Source: Oryzisolibacter sp. LB2S (GTDB taxonomy: Bacteria; Pseudomonadota; Gammaproteobacteria; Burkholderiales; Burkholderiaceae_C). Taken from it: a DNA stretch of 64,000 nt. Below the pieces are notes generated by a model, which saw nothing but the letters and a program-made list of their open reading frames with translations, made no database searches and had not been told where the DNA came from. A program made the position numbers and the translations under genes. Within the stretch, counting starts at the first letter, position 1, and each line of letters starts with the position of its first letter. Shown piece after piece: positions 5,994 to 59,171 of this stretch. The stretch is taken from NCBI RefSeq assembly GCF_040732315.1, contig NZ_CP160388.1:434001-498000 (forward strand), read 5' to 3'.

Positions 5994-6022
5994 AAAAAAG
6001 CCCGGTGCCTGGGCACCGGGCT
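5994..6022 (-). terminator. Rho-independent terminator of Bug copy 2
   Basis: Same hairpin as at 1402-1431: stem arms 5999-6009 / 6012-6022 with an A-run on the plus strand (5994-5999) giving U's in the minus transcript. It also faces the end of the Bug gene at 5883. Confidence 0.85.
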
Positions 6023-7010
6023 CGGGGCGTTGCGCCTGCGGGAGATCAGTCTGCGTAGGCGTTGGCGGCCTTGATCACGGCGCCCCACTTGTCGATCTCG
6101 GACTGCACGAACTTCTTGTGTTCGGCCGGCAGTACGCGCTTGTCGGCCACGACGACGGCGCCCAGGCCTTCCTGCTTCTTGATGAAATCGGGGTCCTTGA
6201 CGGCCACCTGCAGGGCCTCGTTGATGCGCGTGAGCACCGCTACGGGCGTCCCCTTGGGCGCGTACAGGCCATGCCAGACCGAGACGCTGAAGTCCTTGAG
6301 GCCGCTCTCCTGCAGCGTCGGCAGATCCTTGAGCGCGGGCATGGTCAGGCGCTGGGCGGTGGTGACGGCAAAGGCCTTGACCTTCTTGCCCTCGATCTGC
6401 GACGTGGTGTTGGTCGTCTGGTCGCACATCAGGTCGATCTGGCCGCCGATCAGGTCGGTGATGGCCGGCGCAGCGCCCTTGTAGGCCACGGGCGTCATGT
6501 GCGACTGCAGCGCGCTCTGGAACATCAGGCCGCACAGATGGCCGGCCGAGCCCAGGCCCGAATGGCCCAGGTTGACCTTCTCCTTGTTCTGGGAGATCCA
6601 GGCCGACAGCTCCTTGAAGTTCTTCGCCTCCAGGGTCGGGCGCGAGATGATGGTCATGGGCACATCGTTGACGATGCCCAGGTACTCGAAGTCGTTCAGC
6701 ACGTTGAACGACAGCTTGCGGTACAGCGAGGGGATGGTGGCCATGCCGATGTGCGTCAGCAGCAGGGTGTAGCCATCGGGCTGGGCGCGCGCGACCTTGG
6801 CCACGCCGATGGTGCTGCCGGCGCCGGCGGCGTTGTCGATGACGACGGTGGCGCCGCCCAGGGGCTTGCGCAGGGCCTCGGCCAGGTCACGTGCCACGCG
6901 GTCGGTGGGGCCACCGGCCGAGAACGGCACGACGATGGTGACGGACTTGCCTGCGGCCGGGAAGGTCTGGGCCGATGCGCAGAACGCGGCCAGGATGGCG
7001 GCGGTGGCCA
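5994..7010. repeat. Direct repeat, copy 2 (about 1,017 bp): Bug gene body plus terminator
   Basis: Matches 1403-2419 at constant offset 4,591. The left edge is the terminator A-run; the right edge is within the signal-peptide codons of the Bug gene. The two copies bracket 3,574 bp containing the esterase, lysR and bug genes. Confidence 0.92.
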
Positions 7011-8370: not shown

Positions 8371-8397
8371 GCTTTCCTGTGCGGGTGGACTATGGGT

Positions 8398-8448
8398 AAA
8401 AATGGCCGCCAACGCTTGCCAGTAAAGCGCGAGCAGCTATGAAAATTG
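8398..8448 (+). repeat. Dispersed palindromic repeat, copy a
   Basis: Carries the family pattern TGGCC-N4-ACGCTT, short loop, AAAGCGC, then GCAGCTAT and a short A-rich tail. Fills the gap between the livF-like stop and the PaaK-like start. Confidence 0.72.
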
Positions 8449-18224: not shown

Positions 18225-18238
18225 CTTGGAGTTTGAAC

Positions 18239-18292
18239 GAAATTGGGCCCTAGCCCTTTATTGACAAGCGCAAGCAGCTATCGAAACAATAG
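18239..18292 (+). repeat. Dispersed palindromic repeat, copy b
   Basis: AAATTGGGCCCTAG at the left, CAAGCGCAAGCAGCTAT at the right, matching the family pattern. Located between gspB and the Crp/Fnr-type gene, so it may lie in that gene's upstream region. Confidence 0.7.
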
Positions 18293-25542: not shown

Positions 25543-25617
25543 ATCCGTCGTCGATCGCCTGCAAGGCCCGCCCGGTTCGCGCTCGTCGCACGCACGGGAA
25601 TCGACGGATTGCCTCTG

Positions 25618-25669
25618 TTTTGATAGCTGTCTGCGCTTGTCAGCAAAGGGCTGGAGGCCAATTTGAGCC
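25618..25669 (-). repeat. Dispersed palindromic repeat, copy c
   Basis: Minus-oriented member: TTTTGATAGCTGTCTGCGCTT, loop, then GGGCTGGAGGCCAATTTGAG. One of the fullest copies. Located in the lldP/bug intergenic region. Confidence 0.78.
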
Positions 25670-25790
25670 AAATTCTGGGCGCCTGCATGCGACAGCGCGG
25701 CGCCGGGCTTGCAGGGATTCCCTAGTGCGGAGCGCGGGCCCGCGCCCGCATCATCGATGCCCCATTTCGACCATTACCAGGAGACAACGC

Positions 25791-31403: not shown

Positions 31404-32438
31404 TCACCCCACCAGCGGCTCCTCGCGCATGGCCTCTATCTGTTCGCGCAGCAGGTCCACCTGGCCGCGCCAATAGGCGCTGCCGCCGAACCAGGGGAAG
31501 TTGTGCGGAAAGGTCGGGTCGCCCCAGCGCCGCGCGAGCCAGGCGCTGTAGTGGATCAGGCGCAGCGTGCGCAGCGGCTCGATGAGCGCGAGCTCGCGCC
31601 GGTCGAAGGCGCGCAGCTGCTCGTAGCCCTCGAGCAGCGTCGACAGCTGCAGCGAGCGCTGGCGCCGGTCGCCCGACAGCAGCATCCACAGGTCCTGCAC
31701 CGCAGGGCCCATGCGCGCGTCGTCCAGGTCCACGAAATGCGGGCCGCCCTGGCCCGCGTCATCCACGGGCGTCCACAGCACATTGCCGGGGTGGCAGTCG
31801 CCGTGCAGGCGGATGGCCTCTGCATCCTTGAGGCCAAATTGGCCTGCAGCGCCCGGTGGGAAAGCGCTGGAAGCTATCAATTCAAGAGCTTCGTCGCAGG
31901 CGCTGCGCCATGCCGCCTGCTGGTCCAGCGGGATGATCCGCGTCGCCAGCAGCCAGTCGCGCGGCTCCTGGCCAAAGCTCTGCAGATCGAGTCGCGGGCG
32001 CTCCACGAAGGGCCGCTCTGCGCCCACGTTGTGGATGCGCGCGAGGTACCGGCCCAGCCATTCGAGCACCTCGTAGTCGTCGAGCTCGGGCATGCGCCCG
32101 CCGCGCCAGGGGCTGATGGAGAAGTCAAAGCCCGCGTGCCGGTGCAGGCTGCGGCCCTGCAGGATCAGCGGCGCCACCACGGGCACCTCGGCCGCGGCCA
32201 GCTCCTGGGCGAAGTCGTGTTCCTCCTGGATCTGCGCCTGGCTCCAGCGGCCGGGGCGGTAGAACTTGGCGACGACGCGGCTGCCGTCCTCCAGCGTCAC
32301 CTGGTAGACGCGGTTCTCGTAGGAGCCCAGCGCCATCAGCCGGCCGTCGCCGTTCAGCCCCAGGCCCGCGAGGGCGTCGAGCACCAGGTCGGGCGTGAGG
32401 CTGGCGTAGGGGTGGGGGCTGTCGTCGGGCGTGCGCAT
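31404..32438 (-). CDS. srkA: Stress-response kinase SrkA (YihE/RdoA) with inserted repeat
   Basis: 344 residues from the ATG at 32438. Aminoglycoside-phosphotransferase-like kinase: GSYENRVYQVTLEDG and VVAKFYRPGRW (ATP lobe), LHGDCHPGNVLW (catalytic Asp214) and FVDLDDARMGP. The E. coli homologue is a cytosolic Ser/Thr kinase linked to envelope stress and survival. Residues about 185-203 (IASSAFPPGAAGQFG) are encoded by a copy of the dispersed repeat lying in frame just before the catalytic loop. The open frame continues upstream into the previous gene, but only this start fits the family. Confidence 0.9.
   Translation of the reverse strand: MRTPDDSPHPYASLTPDLVLDALAGLGLNGDGRLMALGSYENRVYQVTLEDGSRVVAKFYRPGRWSQAQIQEEHDFAQELAAAEVPVVAPLILQGRSLHRHAGFDFSISPWRGGRMPELDDYEVLEWLGRYLARIHNVGAERPFVERPRLDLQSFGQEPRDWLLATRIIPLDQQAAWRSACDEALELIASSAFPPGAAGQFGLKDAEAIRLHGDCHPGNVLWTPVDDAGQGGPHFVDLDDARMGPAVQDLWMLLSGDRRQRSLQLSTLLEGYEQLRAFDRRELALIEPLRTLRLIHYSAWLARRWGDPTFPHNFPWFGGSAYWRGQVDLLREQIEAMREEPLVG
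31831..31886 (+). repeat. Dispersed palindromic repeat, copy d (inside srkA)
   Basis: CCAAATTGGCC, GCAGCGCC, loop, AAAGCGCTGGAAGCTATCAA on the plus strand, antisense to srkA. It contributes about 18 codons without a stop. Confidence 0.72.
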
Positions 32439-37279: not shown

Positions 37280-38764
37280 ATGGGCCCATCCACTGACACA
37301 GCCATGCTCACCCGCACGCCCGAACGCAGCCTGACCGAACAACTGGCCGAGCGCTTTGCCGAGCGCATACGCGCGCGCCTGCTGCCCGCGGGCGCGCGCC
37401 TGCCCTCGGTGCGCGAATGCGCGCGCCAGCAGGGCGTGAGCCCCTACACCGTGGTCGCGGCCTACGACAAGCTGCTCGCCCAGGGCCTGGTGGAGGCGCG
37501 GCGTCAGCGCGGGTTCTTCGTGCGCGATATTGCACAGAATATGCCTCCAGGGCAGGTGGGTAAATCGCTGGCAGCTATGTCTTCAGGAGCGGAGCAGGCA
37601 TCGCCACTGGGCACGATAGGCGTGCGCATGACGGGCTCGCAGATCAACGCCACGGCGCTGATGCGCGGCATGTTCTACCAGGCGTCGGCCAAGCCCCAGC
37701 CCGGCTCGGGCGTGCTGCCCGTGGCCTGGCTGGGGGAGGCGCGCTTTCTACCCGCAGCCGTGCGCAAGATCACCGCCGGCCCGGCGCTGCAGGGTGGGTC
37801 GCTGAGCTATGGCGAGCCCATGGGCGACGCGGGCCTGCGCCGGGCGCTGGCGCGGCGCATGGCCGACATCGACATTGCCGCGGCGCCCGAGCAGATCATG
37901 ACCACCGTGGGCGCCACGCAGGCGCTCGACATCGTGAGCCGCGCGCTGCTCAAGGCCGGCGACCCGGTGATGGTGGAGGAGCCCGGCTGGAGCGTGGAGT
38001 TCGCGCGCCTCGACGCCCTGGGCATGCGCGTGCTGCCCGTGCCGCGCGGCCCCGCGGGGCCGGACCTGGACGTCATGGCGCGCTACTGCGAGCTGCACGC
38101 GCCCAGGCTGTTCGTGAGCGTGAGCGTGCTGCACAACCCCACGGGCTACAGCCTCTCGCCGGCGGTGGCGCACCAGGTGCTGCAGCTGGCCGAACGGCAT
38201 GGCTTTCACATCGTCGAGGACGACACCTACGGCCATATCGCGCCCGAGCACGCGACGCGCCTGGCCGCGCTCGACGGCCTGCGCCGCACCATCTACGTGA
38301 ACGGCTTTGCCAAGATCCTCGCGCCCAACTGGCGCGTGGGCTACCTGGCCGCGCCGCCCGAGCTCGTCGAGCGCCTGCTCGACACCAAGCTGCTGTCCAC
38401 GCTGACCACGCCGTCCCTGCTGGAGAAGGCGCTCGCCCTGTGCATAGAACAGGGCCAGCTGCGCCGCCACGCCGAGCGCATGCGCCAGCGCCTGGCCCAG
38501 GCGCGTGCGCGCAGCGTGCAGCTGGCGCTGGCCGCGGGTTGCCGCTTCGCCGCCGAGCCCGCGGGCATGTTCGGCTGGGTGGACACGGGTGTGGACACCG
38601 ACCTGCTGGCCCAGCGCATGCTCGACGAGGGCTATCTGATCGCCCCCGGCGCGCTCTTCCGCGCCACGCGCCGGCCCTGCACGCTGATGCGCATCAACTT
38701 CGCCACCACGCAGGAGCCGGCGTTCTGGCAGGCCTGGAGGCGGGTGGTGCAGGAGCTGCAATAG
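37280..38764 (+). CDS. MocR-type regulator (GntR HTH fused to aminotransferase domain)
   Basis: 494 residues; Met at residue 9 is an alternative start. Residues 18-82 are a GntR winged helix (LPSVRECARQQGVSPYTVVA). Residues from about 115 form a class I aminotransferase-like domain with SVLHNPTGYSLSP, EDDTYGHI and NGFAKILAPNWRVGYL (PLP lysine). MocR proteins use PLP or its adducts as effector. Residues about 86-103 in the linker are encoded by a dispersed repeat copy. Divergent from the DMT exporter, its probable target. Confidence 0.92.
   Translation: MGPSTDTAMLTRTPERSLTEQLAERFAERIRARLLPAGARLPSVRECARQQGVSPYTVVAAYDKLLAQGLVEARRQRGFFVRDIAQNMPPGQVGKSLAAMSSGAEQASPLGTIGVRMTGSQINATALMRGMFYQASAKPQPGSGVLPVAWLGEARFLPAAVRKITAGPALQGGSLSYGEPMGDAGLRRALARRMADIDIAAAPEQIMTTVGATQALDIVSRALLKAGDPVMVEEPGWSVEFARLDALGMRVLPVPRGPAGPDLDVMARYCELHAPRLFVSVSVLHNPTGYSLSPAVAHQVLQLAERHGFHIVEDDTYGHIAPEHATRLAALDGLRRTIYVNGFAKILAPNWRVGYLAAPPELVERLLDTKLLSTLTTPSLLEKALALCIEQGQLRRHAERMRQRLAQARARSVQLALAAGCRFAAEPAGMFGWVDTGVDTDLLAQRMLDEGYLIAPGALFRATRRPCTLMRINFATTQEPAFWQAWRRVVQELQ
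37535..37587 (+). repeat. Dispersed palindromic repeat, copy e (inside the MocR gene)
   Basis: GCCTCCAGGGC, loop, TAAATCGCTGGCAGCTATG, degenerate but in the family order. Lies in frame in the linker codons, on the coding strand. Confidence 0.55.
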
Positions 38765-47983: not shown

Positions 47984-48065
47984 GGCGATGATTGTGGGCT
48001 GCCATGTGCCGCGCGAAGCATCAAAAAGACGCGAGAAATGCCGCCTTTTTGCGCAACACGGATTT

Positions 48066-48123
48066 CAATGAAAACGGCCTCAAGCGCTTTGCTGTAAAGC
48101 GCTGGAAGCTATTAAAGTGATAG
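48066..48123 (+). repeat. Dispersed palindromic repeat, copy g
   Basis: The clearest hairpin of the family: AAGCGCTTT-GCTG-TAAAGCGCT, then GGAAGCTATTAAAG. Lies directly downstream of the flgH stop, between flgH and flgI. Confidence 0.82.
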
Positions 48124-58398: not shown

Positions 58399-58453
58399 AC
58401 TATTGAAAGAATAGCTGTCAGCGCACTGTGCAAGCGTGCTGGAGCCAAAAATC
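58399..58453 (-). repeat. Dispersed palindromic repeat, copy h
   Basis: ATAGCTGTCAGCGCACTGTG, CAAGCGTGCTGGAGCCAAAAA, in the family order on the minus strand. Lies between the convergent AraC and fliA genes and directly abuts the fliA stop. Confidence 0.75.
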
Positions 58454-58454
58454 G

Positions 58455-59171
58455 TCAATGTTCCCGCATCTTGGTGCGCAGCCGTGCGATGGCCTGGCTG
58501 TGCAGCTGGCACACGCGCGACTCGGTCACGCCGAGCACGGCGGCGATCTCCTTGAGATTCATGTCGTGCTCGTAGTACATGCCCATGATGTGCTGCTCGC
58601 GTTCGGGCAGCTGTCCGATCGCAGCCACCAGCGCCGTGCGCAGGCGCCGGTCGCGCAGCATGGACATGGGGTCCGCGCCCTCGTCGGCCGCATGGCGGTC
58701 CAGAAAGCCTTCGTCGCCCTCGTCGCTGCCGGTCATGTCCTCCAGATACACGAGCTGCGTGCCGCGCACCTTGCCCAGCAGCGCCTGATAGTCCTGCAGG
58801 CTCAGCCCCAGCTCGGCGGCGATTTCCGACTCCAGGGGGCTGCGCCCGAGGCGCTGCTCCACGCGCTGCAGGGCCTGCTCTATGTCCTTCTGGCTCTTGC
58901 GTGCGCCGCGGCTCATCCAGTCGCCGTCGCGCAGCTCGTCGAGCATGGCGCCGCGTATGCGCTGGCTGGCGAAGGTCTCGAACTGCACGCCCTGCGACGC
59001 CTCGTAGCGCGAGAGCGCGTCATTGAGGCCGATCAGGCCGACCTGGATCAGGTCGTCGAGCTCCACGTTCGGTGGCAGCTTGGCAATCATGTGATGGGCG
59101 ATGCGCCGCACCAGCGGCACATGCTGGTGGAACATGGCGTCGCGGTTGAGCTGGCCTTTGGCGGTGTACAT
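58455..59171 (-). CDS. fliA: Flagellar sigma factor FliA (sigma-28)
   Basis: 238 residues from the ATG at 59171, 4 bp after the flhG-like stop; 59204 is an alternative. Region 2: VELDDLIQVGLIGLNDALSR, FETFASQRIRGAMLDELRDG. Region 4: LPEREQHIMGMYYEHDMNLK, and EIAAVLGVTESRVCQLHSQA. Directs RNA polymerase to late flagellar and chemotaxis promoters such as the one found before flgM. Last gene of flhBA-flhF-flhG-fliA. Confidence 0.96.
   Translation of the reverse strand: MYTAKGQLNRDAMFHQHVPLVRRIAHHMIAKLPPNVELDDLIQVGLIGLNDALSRYEASQGVQFETFASQRIRGAMLDELRDGDWMSRGARKSQKDIEQALQRVEQRLGRSPLESEIAAELGLSLQDYQALLGKVRGTQLVYLEDMTGSDEGDEGFLDRHAADEGADPMSMLRDRRLRTALVAAIGQLPEREQHIMGMYYEHDMNLKEIAAVLGVTESRVCQLHSQAIARLRTKMREH

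Follow-up and report, generated by a model that had tools for sequence, protein, structure and literature searches.

An in-frame dispersed repeat in srkA of Oryzisolibacter, probably an old insertion inherited as a coding loop

A short run of DNA inside the srkA gene of Oryzisolibacter sp. LB2S resembles a repeat dispersed elsewhere in the same genome and lies just ahead of the catalytic loop of the encoded kinase. The locus raises the question of whether this run is a copy of the repeat read in frame, how long it has been there, and what has become of the peptide it encodes. We address this question in the window, which denotes the whole stretch of 64,000 nucleotides that was analysed (contig NZ_CP160388.1, positions 434,001 to 498,000 of the forward strand), and across relatives of its host.

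The repeat copy in srkA

The locus comprises the gene and the repeat copy, which we assign to a family named A:

31407-32438, minus strand: srkA, 344 aa (stop codon at 31404-31406)
31828-31883, minus strand, sense to srkA: family A copy, frame TTG ATA GCT, residues ~186-204, nhmmer 47.9 bits

SrkA belongs to the stress response kinase A/YihE family, with an APH fold. It scores 488 bits against the NCBIfam equivalog NF008738, and phmmer matches it to the solved homologue 1zyl (E. coli YihE) with an E-value of 8e-93. The catalytic motifs HGD and DLDD are present, and residues H212, G213, D214, H216, G218, N219, D237, D239, and D240 are invariant in 19 homologues.

The repeat is open in the frame of the gene and encodes residues ~186-204 (the LIASSAFPPGAAGQFGLK region), ahead of the HGDCHPGN motif that starts at residue 212. 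The initial annotation had proposed a stop-free dispersed repeat in frame near the catalytic loop, and this is confirmed with nhmmer: a model trained on 33 copies from elsewhere in the genome, the one in srkA being withheld, gives the real copy 47.9 bits, versus a best score of 9.5 bits in 3,000 codon-shuffled srkA sequences. The place given earlier (31831-31886) was right, although the repeat was found up to 3 nt away from it. Codons 183-201 have the lowest GC3 of the gene (37%), the lowest GC (54% versus a gene mean of 71%), and the worst codon score. In the AlphaFold model (mean pLDDT 81.5; best solved match 1zyl, TM 0.82), the helix formed by residues 171-191 terminates at the repeat, and pLDDT falls to ~50 over residues 191-200. 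The predicted structure fits a flexible loop for the repeat-encoded segment, low model confidence being no proof by itself.

Family A, a dispersed repeat of Comamonadaceae

The family A consensus is ~59 nt long, AT-ended, and imperfectly palindromic, reading roughly TTTTGATAGCTGCCAGCGCTTG-N7-AAGCGCTGGAGGCC..TTTGA..CAAAA; on its sense strand, TTG-ATA-GCT is the only frame open throughout. The inner arm shows 83% paired cells, with covariation not clearly above shuffles (66/500 were as high), and the TTTG/CAAA ends are complementary in 66% of cells. The family is truly dispersed, with 222 genome sites having at most two mismatches to TTGATAGCTNNNAGCGCNT versus 3 for the reversed pattern. A stringent pattern gave 164 matches in this genome (control, 1), 88-226 in genomes of g1, g2, and g11, where the lowest counts come from incomplete assemblies, and 408 in g16; matches were none or few in many other genera of f1 and in 24 other families. 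Family A is restricted to f1, one family of Burkholderiales that named loci identify as Comamonadaceae. Spread on plasmids or phages was considered and rejected: among the plasmids and phages searched, the repeat appeared in two plasmid records, both from one Diaphorobacter strain and at gene boundaries, and in no phage. A literature search of open-access papers found no description of this repeat.

Beyond srkA, the window contains the following copies:

8387-8446, minus strand: family A copy, 46.8 bits, outside a through-reading coding frame
18229-18287, minus strand: family A copy, 45.6 bits, outside a through-reading coding frame
25617-25675, plus strand: family A copy, 52.5 bits, outside a through-reading coding frame
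37526-37578, minus strand: degenerate family A copy in a MocR-like regulator, antisense to the CDS at 37280-38764 (plus strand), 18.9 bits
41309-41367, plus strand: family A copy, 37.7 bits, outside a through-reading coding frame
48061-48116, minus strand: family A copy, 47.3 bits, outside a through-reading coding frame
58411-58461, plus strand: weak family A copy, 18.7 bits

The MocR-like copy sits in the linker between the HTH and aminotransferase domains (GntR and Aminotran_1_2), with a positive coding score on both sides. The window also holds an exact direct duplication of 1,017 nt (1403-2419 and 5994-7010), with a spacing of 4,591 nt.

Insertions in other genes and a second family

The intragenic tally covers 117 mostly well-preserved family A copies of this genome, a subset of all copies. 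About 11 of the 117 lie in a frame flanked on either side by coding signal, and about 106 fall outside through-reading frames; with the coding fraction put roughly at 75% or more, family A is strongly depleted from genes. Most intragenic copies have old, eroded ends. In-frame copies backed by homology occur in FemAB-like (PF04339), ThiL, RecQ, Fmt, and PurL genes. Those in HsdM-like, alpha-2-macroglobulin-like, and Nudix-like genes, the latter two named by eye, and in the MocR-like gene of the window are probable. One further through-reading locus, L226, is doubtful, having no protein recognisable by eye, and stays out of the confirmed set.

Several genera share the repeat-like segment of FemAB-like, ThiL, Fmt, and PurL, and repeat-poor genera lack it; the net gain in these four proteins is about 4-12 residues, below the ~19 codons of the repeat. 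The RecQ site is empty in all six other genomes of the genus (YFGE-ESQP-CGNCDNC; YFGEESQPCGNCDNC and the like); RecQ of G021 has a segment similar to the repeat-derived one, so that the RecQ insertion may be either recent or old. In L277 (ThiL of G003) and L248 (HsdM-like), segments containing PLGxGRGEG look as though they stem from yet another repeat, inserted at these sites or close to them.

A second, unrelated dispersed repeat, family B, is GC-rich and ~80 nt long (GCCCCCACGCTC...CTGCCCCCCGAGGGGG...CTTGGGGCGGCCCGGCGG), and is in tandem in some cases. It occurs in frame in FemAB-like of G009, G010, and G021, in RecQ of G009, and in SrkA of G012, where it accounts for ~39 residues between WTPE and PGPHFVDLDDAR, away from the family A site. 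In RecQ, one and the same loop is occupied by family A in G000 and by family B in G009. The family B copies, in coordinates of their own loci, are:

L180, 1220-1303: family B, relative
L181, 1175-1421: family B, relative
L182, 1151-1314: family B, relative
L183, 1056-1144: family B, relative
L294, 2175-2283: family B, relative
L228, 1298-1377: family B, own genome

With the unrelated families A and B both present in these proteins, the SrkA case is hard to put down to accident. The general claim first made from srkA, that such repeats can add peptide segments to proteins, is better supported after this analysis than before, by the low-pLDDT loop of SrkA together with the in-frame copies in other genes.

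The SrkA loop across relatives

All seven g1 (genus) genomes have family A DNA at this srkA position, on the same strand and in the same frame, scoring 36.8-48.9 bits. Other carriers are g11 (46.1 bits), Acidovorax sp. (45.5), L039 (40.9), and Giesbergeria (37.9); lower scores are found in g2 (29.8), Rhodoferax (24.4 and 17.0), and g15 (21.4), with others down to 11-17 bits. The srkA homologues of Variovorax, Polaromonas, Limnohabitans, Hydrogenophaga, and other families are without family A DNA at this site. The earlier implication that close relatives lack the repeat does not hold: it is carried by six of six same-genus genomes and by several other genera, and therefore the insertion is old, not recent.

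Measured from the SACDEAL column to HGDCH, the loop has 22-25 residues in homologues outside the family, 33 in carriers, and 35 in the Rhodoferax type. An insert of ~18 residues, visible as a clean gap against homologues, had been expected. The size of the coding segment stood, at ~19 codons in frame; the clean gap was not found, and the loop is only about 8 residues longer (33 versus 25), or 8 to 10 over all carriers, although the repeat supplies ~19. This shortfall counts against a plain insertion, which fails to explain it without later trimming: the repeat may have taken the place of native residues, or the lengthened loop may have been cut back afterwards.

Three homologues, L017, L043, and L047, still encode the peptide, in DNA that resembles the repeat weakly or not at all. 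The initial annotation had held that the same residues in homologues without repeat DNA would speak against an insertion, and this was literally found; yet the SrkA tree groups the three with repeat-bearing rows. Most plausibly, then, their DNA lost the repeat pattern through synonymous change and the peptide was preserved. Counting against the insertion reading, the repeat-free homologues L055, L062, and L107 already have ALxLIA/MIA at the left edge. More broadly, repeat-free srkA, femAB-like, and thiL homologues often show [LM][IL]A where TTG-ATA-GCT of the repeat falls, which makes microhomology at insertion and decayed copies indistinguishable.

The tree, built without the loop columns, requires 13 changes of the presence label (shuffled mean, ~22), with a label threshold of 10 bits that scores decayed copies as absent. 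Presence is clustered, yet there is no clean single gain. Deep branches are weakly supported (35/88 open). Paracidovorax and G024, placed beside the g1 group, lack the repeat, so that loss or separate insertions are required. These observations give some room to the main rival, in which the loop of SrkA, as a tolerant insertion hot spot, took up family A separately in several genera. Its case draws on the 13 label changes, on a loop length that varies widely among homologues (22-66 residues), and on the use of the RecQ loop by both families and of a different SrkA site by family B in G012. We nevertheless regard recurrent independent insertion as rather unlikely, as many of the absent labels are decayed copies under the 10-bit threshold, and the 33-residue loop recurs with the same strand and frame in g1, g2, g5, g11, Acidovorax, Giesbergeria, and Comamonas. 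A single old insertion followed by decay and loss is the history that we infer; with 13 label changes against it under the thresholds used, it is preferred rather than demonstrated.

Selection on the insert

Within the genus, pN/pS is 0.50 for the insert, 0.24 for the preceding 100 codons, and 0.11 for the following 100 codons, and the corresponding pS values are 0.283, 0.299, and 0.21. The repeat-derived SrkA peptide is weakly constrained, and its DNA is not specially conserved. Near-neutral retention of the insert would be consistent with these values.

They also bear on the idea that srkA retains the repeat as a functional DNA or RNA element, such as a binding site or hairpin, with the peptide as a by-product. 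The partly complementary palindrome, its highly paired inner arm, and the well-conserved sequence of family A are what one would expect of such an element. This alternative, already weakened, is now distinctly improbable: synonymous sites of the insert are under no extra constraint relative to those upstream, L017, L043, and L047 retain the peptide and have lost the DNA pattern, and the srkA copy, folded as RNA, does not stand out (z -1.4). An RNA-structure or regulatory reading was rejected on this weak fold, on covariation not clearly above shuffles, and on an Rfam search of the window that returned no match. That an ordinary variable SrkA loop merely resembles the repeat, or that the repeat family was born from srkA, has a negligible chance of being right: variability of the loop among all homologues and the presence of ALxLIA in some repeat-free ones speak for it, but chance resemblance is refuted by the 3,000 codon shuffles, homologues outside the family have their 22-25-residue loop without the repeat, and the same repeat occurs in unrelated genes and at more than 150 mostly intergenic sites.

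A proposed history of the insertion

An old family A insertion in srkA, inherited as a coding loop, is very probably the explanation of the locus as a whole. Family A would have multiplied in some Comamonadaceae genera, chiefly at intergenic sites, and a minority of copies would have landed in genes and survived in loops with a stop-free register. The srkA insertion may predate the divergence of the genus from several other genera. The copy would have taken the place of, or pushed aside, some of the loop that joins helix 171-191 to the catalytic HGD, with a gain of ~8 residues. Presumably it has since been passed on like any other coding sequence, with purifying selection acting on it weakly. 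In some lineages, synonymous change probably erased the repeat DNA of srkA while the peptide remained.

Comparison with known repeat systems

By way of working, the closest known kind appears to be the Rickettsia palindromic elements (RPEs), for which in-frame copies in many Rickettsia genes are reported (PMC10969869, PMC3733652; Ogata et al. 2000, 2002 as reviewed in PMC10969869). Both are short dispersed palindromes found in frame in unrelated metabolic or housekeeping genes, adding peptides to presumably functional proteins, and in-frame open copies are present in srkA, femAB-like, thiL, recQ, fmt, and purL. Host and length differ: family A belongs to Comamonadaceae, not Rickettsiales, and measures ~59 nt versus ~150 bp for RPEs (PMC10969869). 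In addition, family A is mostly intergenic (~106/117), its net protein gain is smaller than the element, and several of its insertions are common to genera.

Family A resembles REP/REPIN-RAYT elements in being short, partly palindromic, present at more than 100 copies per genome, and mostly extragenic. Most REPs carry a GTAG/CGTC tag (PMC3733652), whereas the family A consensus has no evident one. This genome has one Y1_Tnp gene, near which the family A copy is weak (12.8 bits), and Y1_Tnp occurs about once per genome in repeat-rich and repeat-free genera alike. A RAYT as the mover of family A was rejected, and REP/RAYT membership is unsupported, because the presence of Y1_Tnp does not follow that of the repeat. 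MITEs (ERIC and similar) offer a third likeness, in that family A is small and non-autonomous, with ends that may be partly complementary and with occasional in-frame gene fusions such as are described for MITEs (PMC10969869); at ~59 nt, it is shorter than their 70-300 bp (PMC3733652). Family A is likened to RPEs by description rather than assigned to them, differing in lineage and length.

Significance

Most of what is known of in-frame palindromic repeats comes from Rickettsia. That other prokaryotes do likewise has been called conceivable (PMC10969869). We think it reasonably likely that two unrelated repeat families have long and repeatedly supplied new loops to Comamonadaceae housekeeping proteins (SrkA, RecQ, ThiL, Fmt, PurL, and FemAB-like), some of them so far domesticated that the peptide persists after the repeat DNA is gone. 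With two repeat families, insertions of graded age, empty sites, and many related genomes, Comamonadaceae allow the fate of repeat-derived peptides to be traced and tested.
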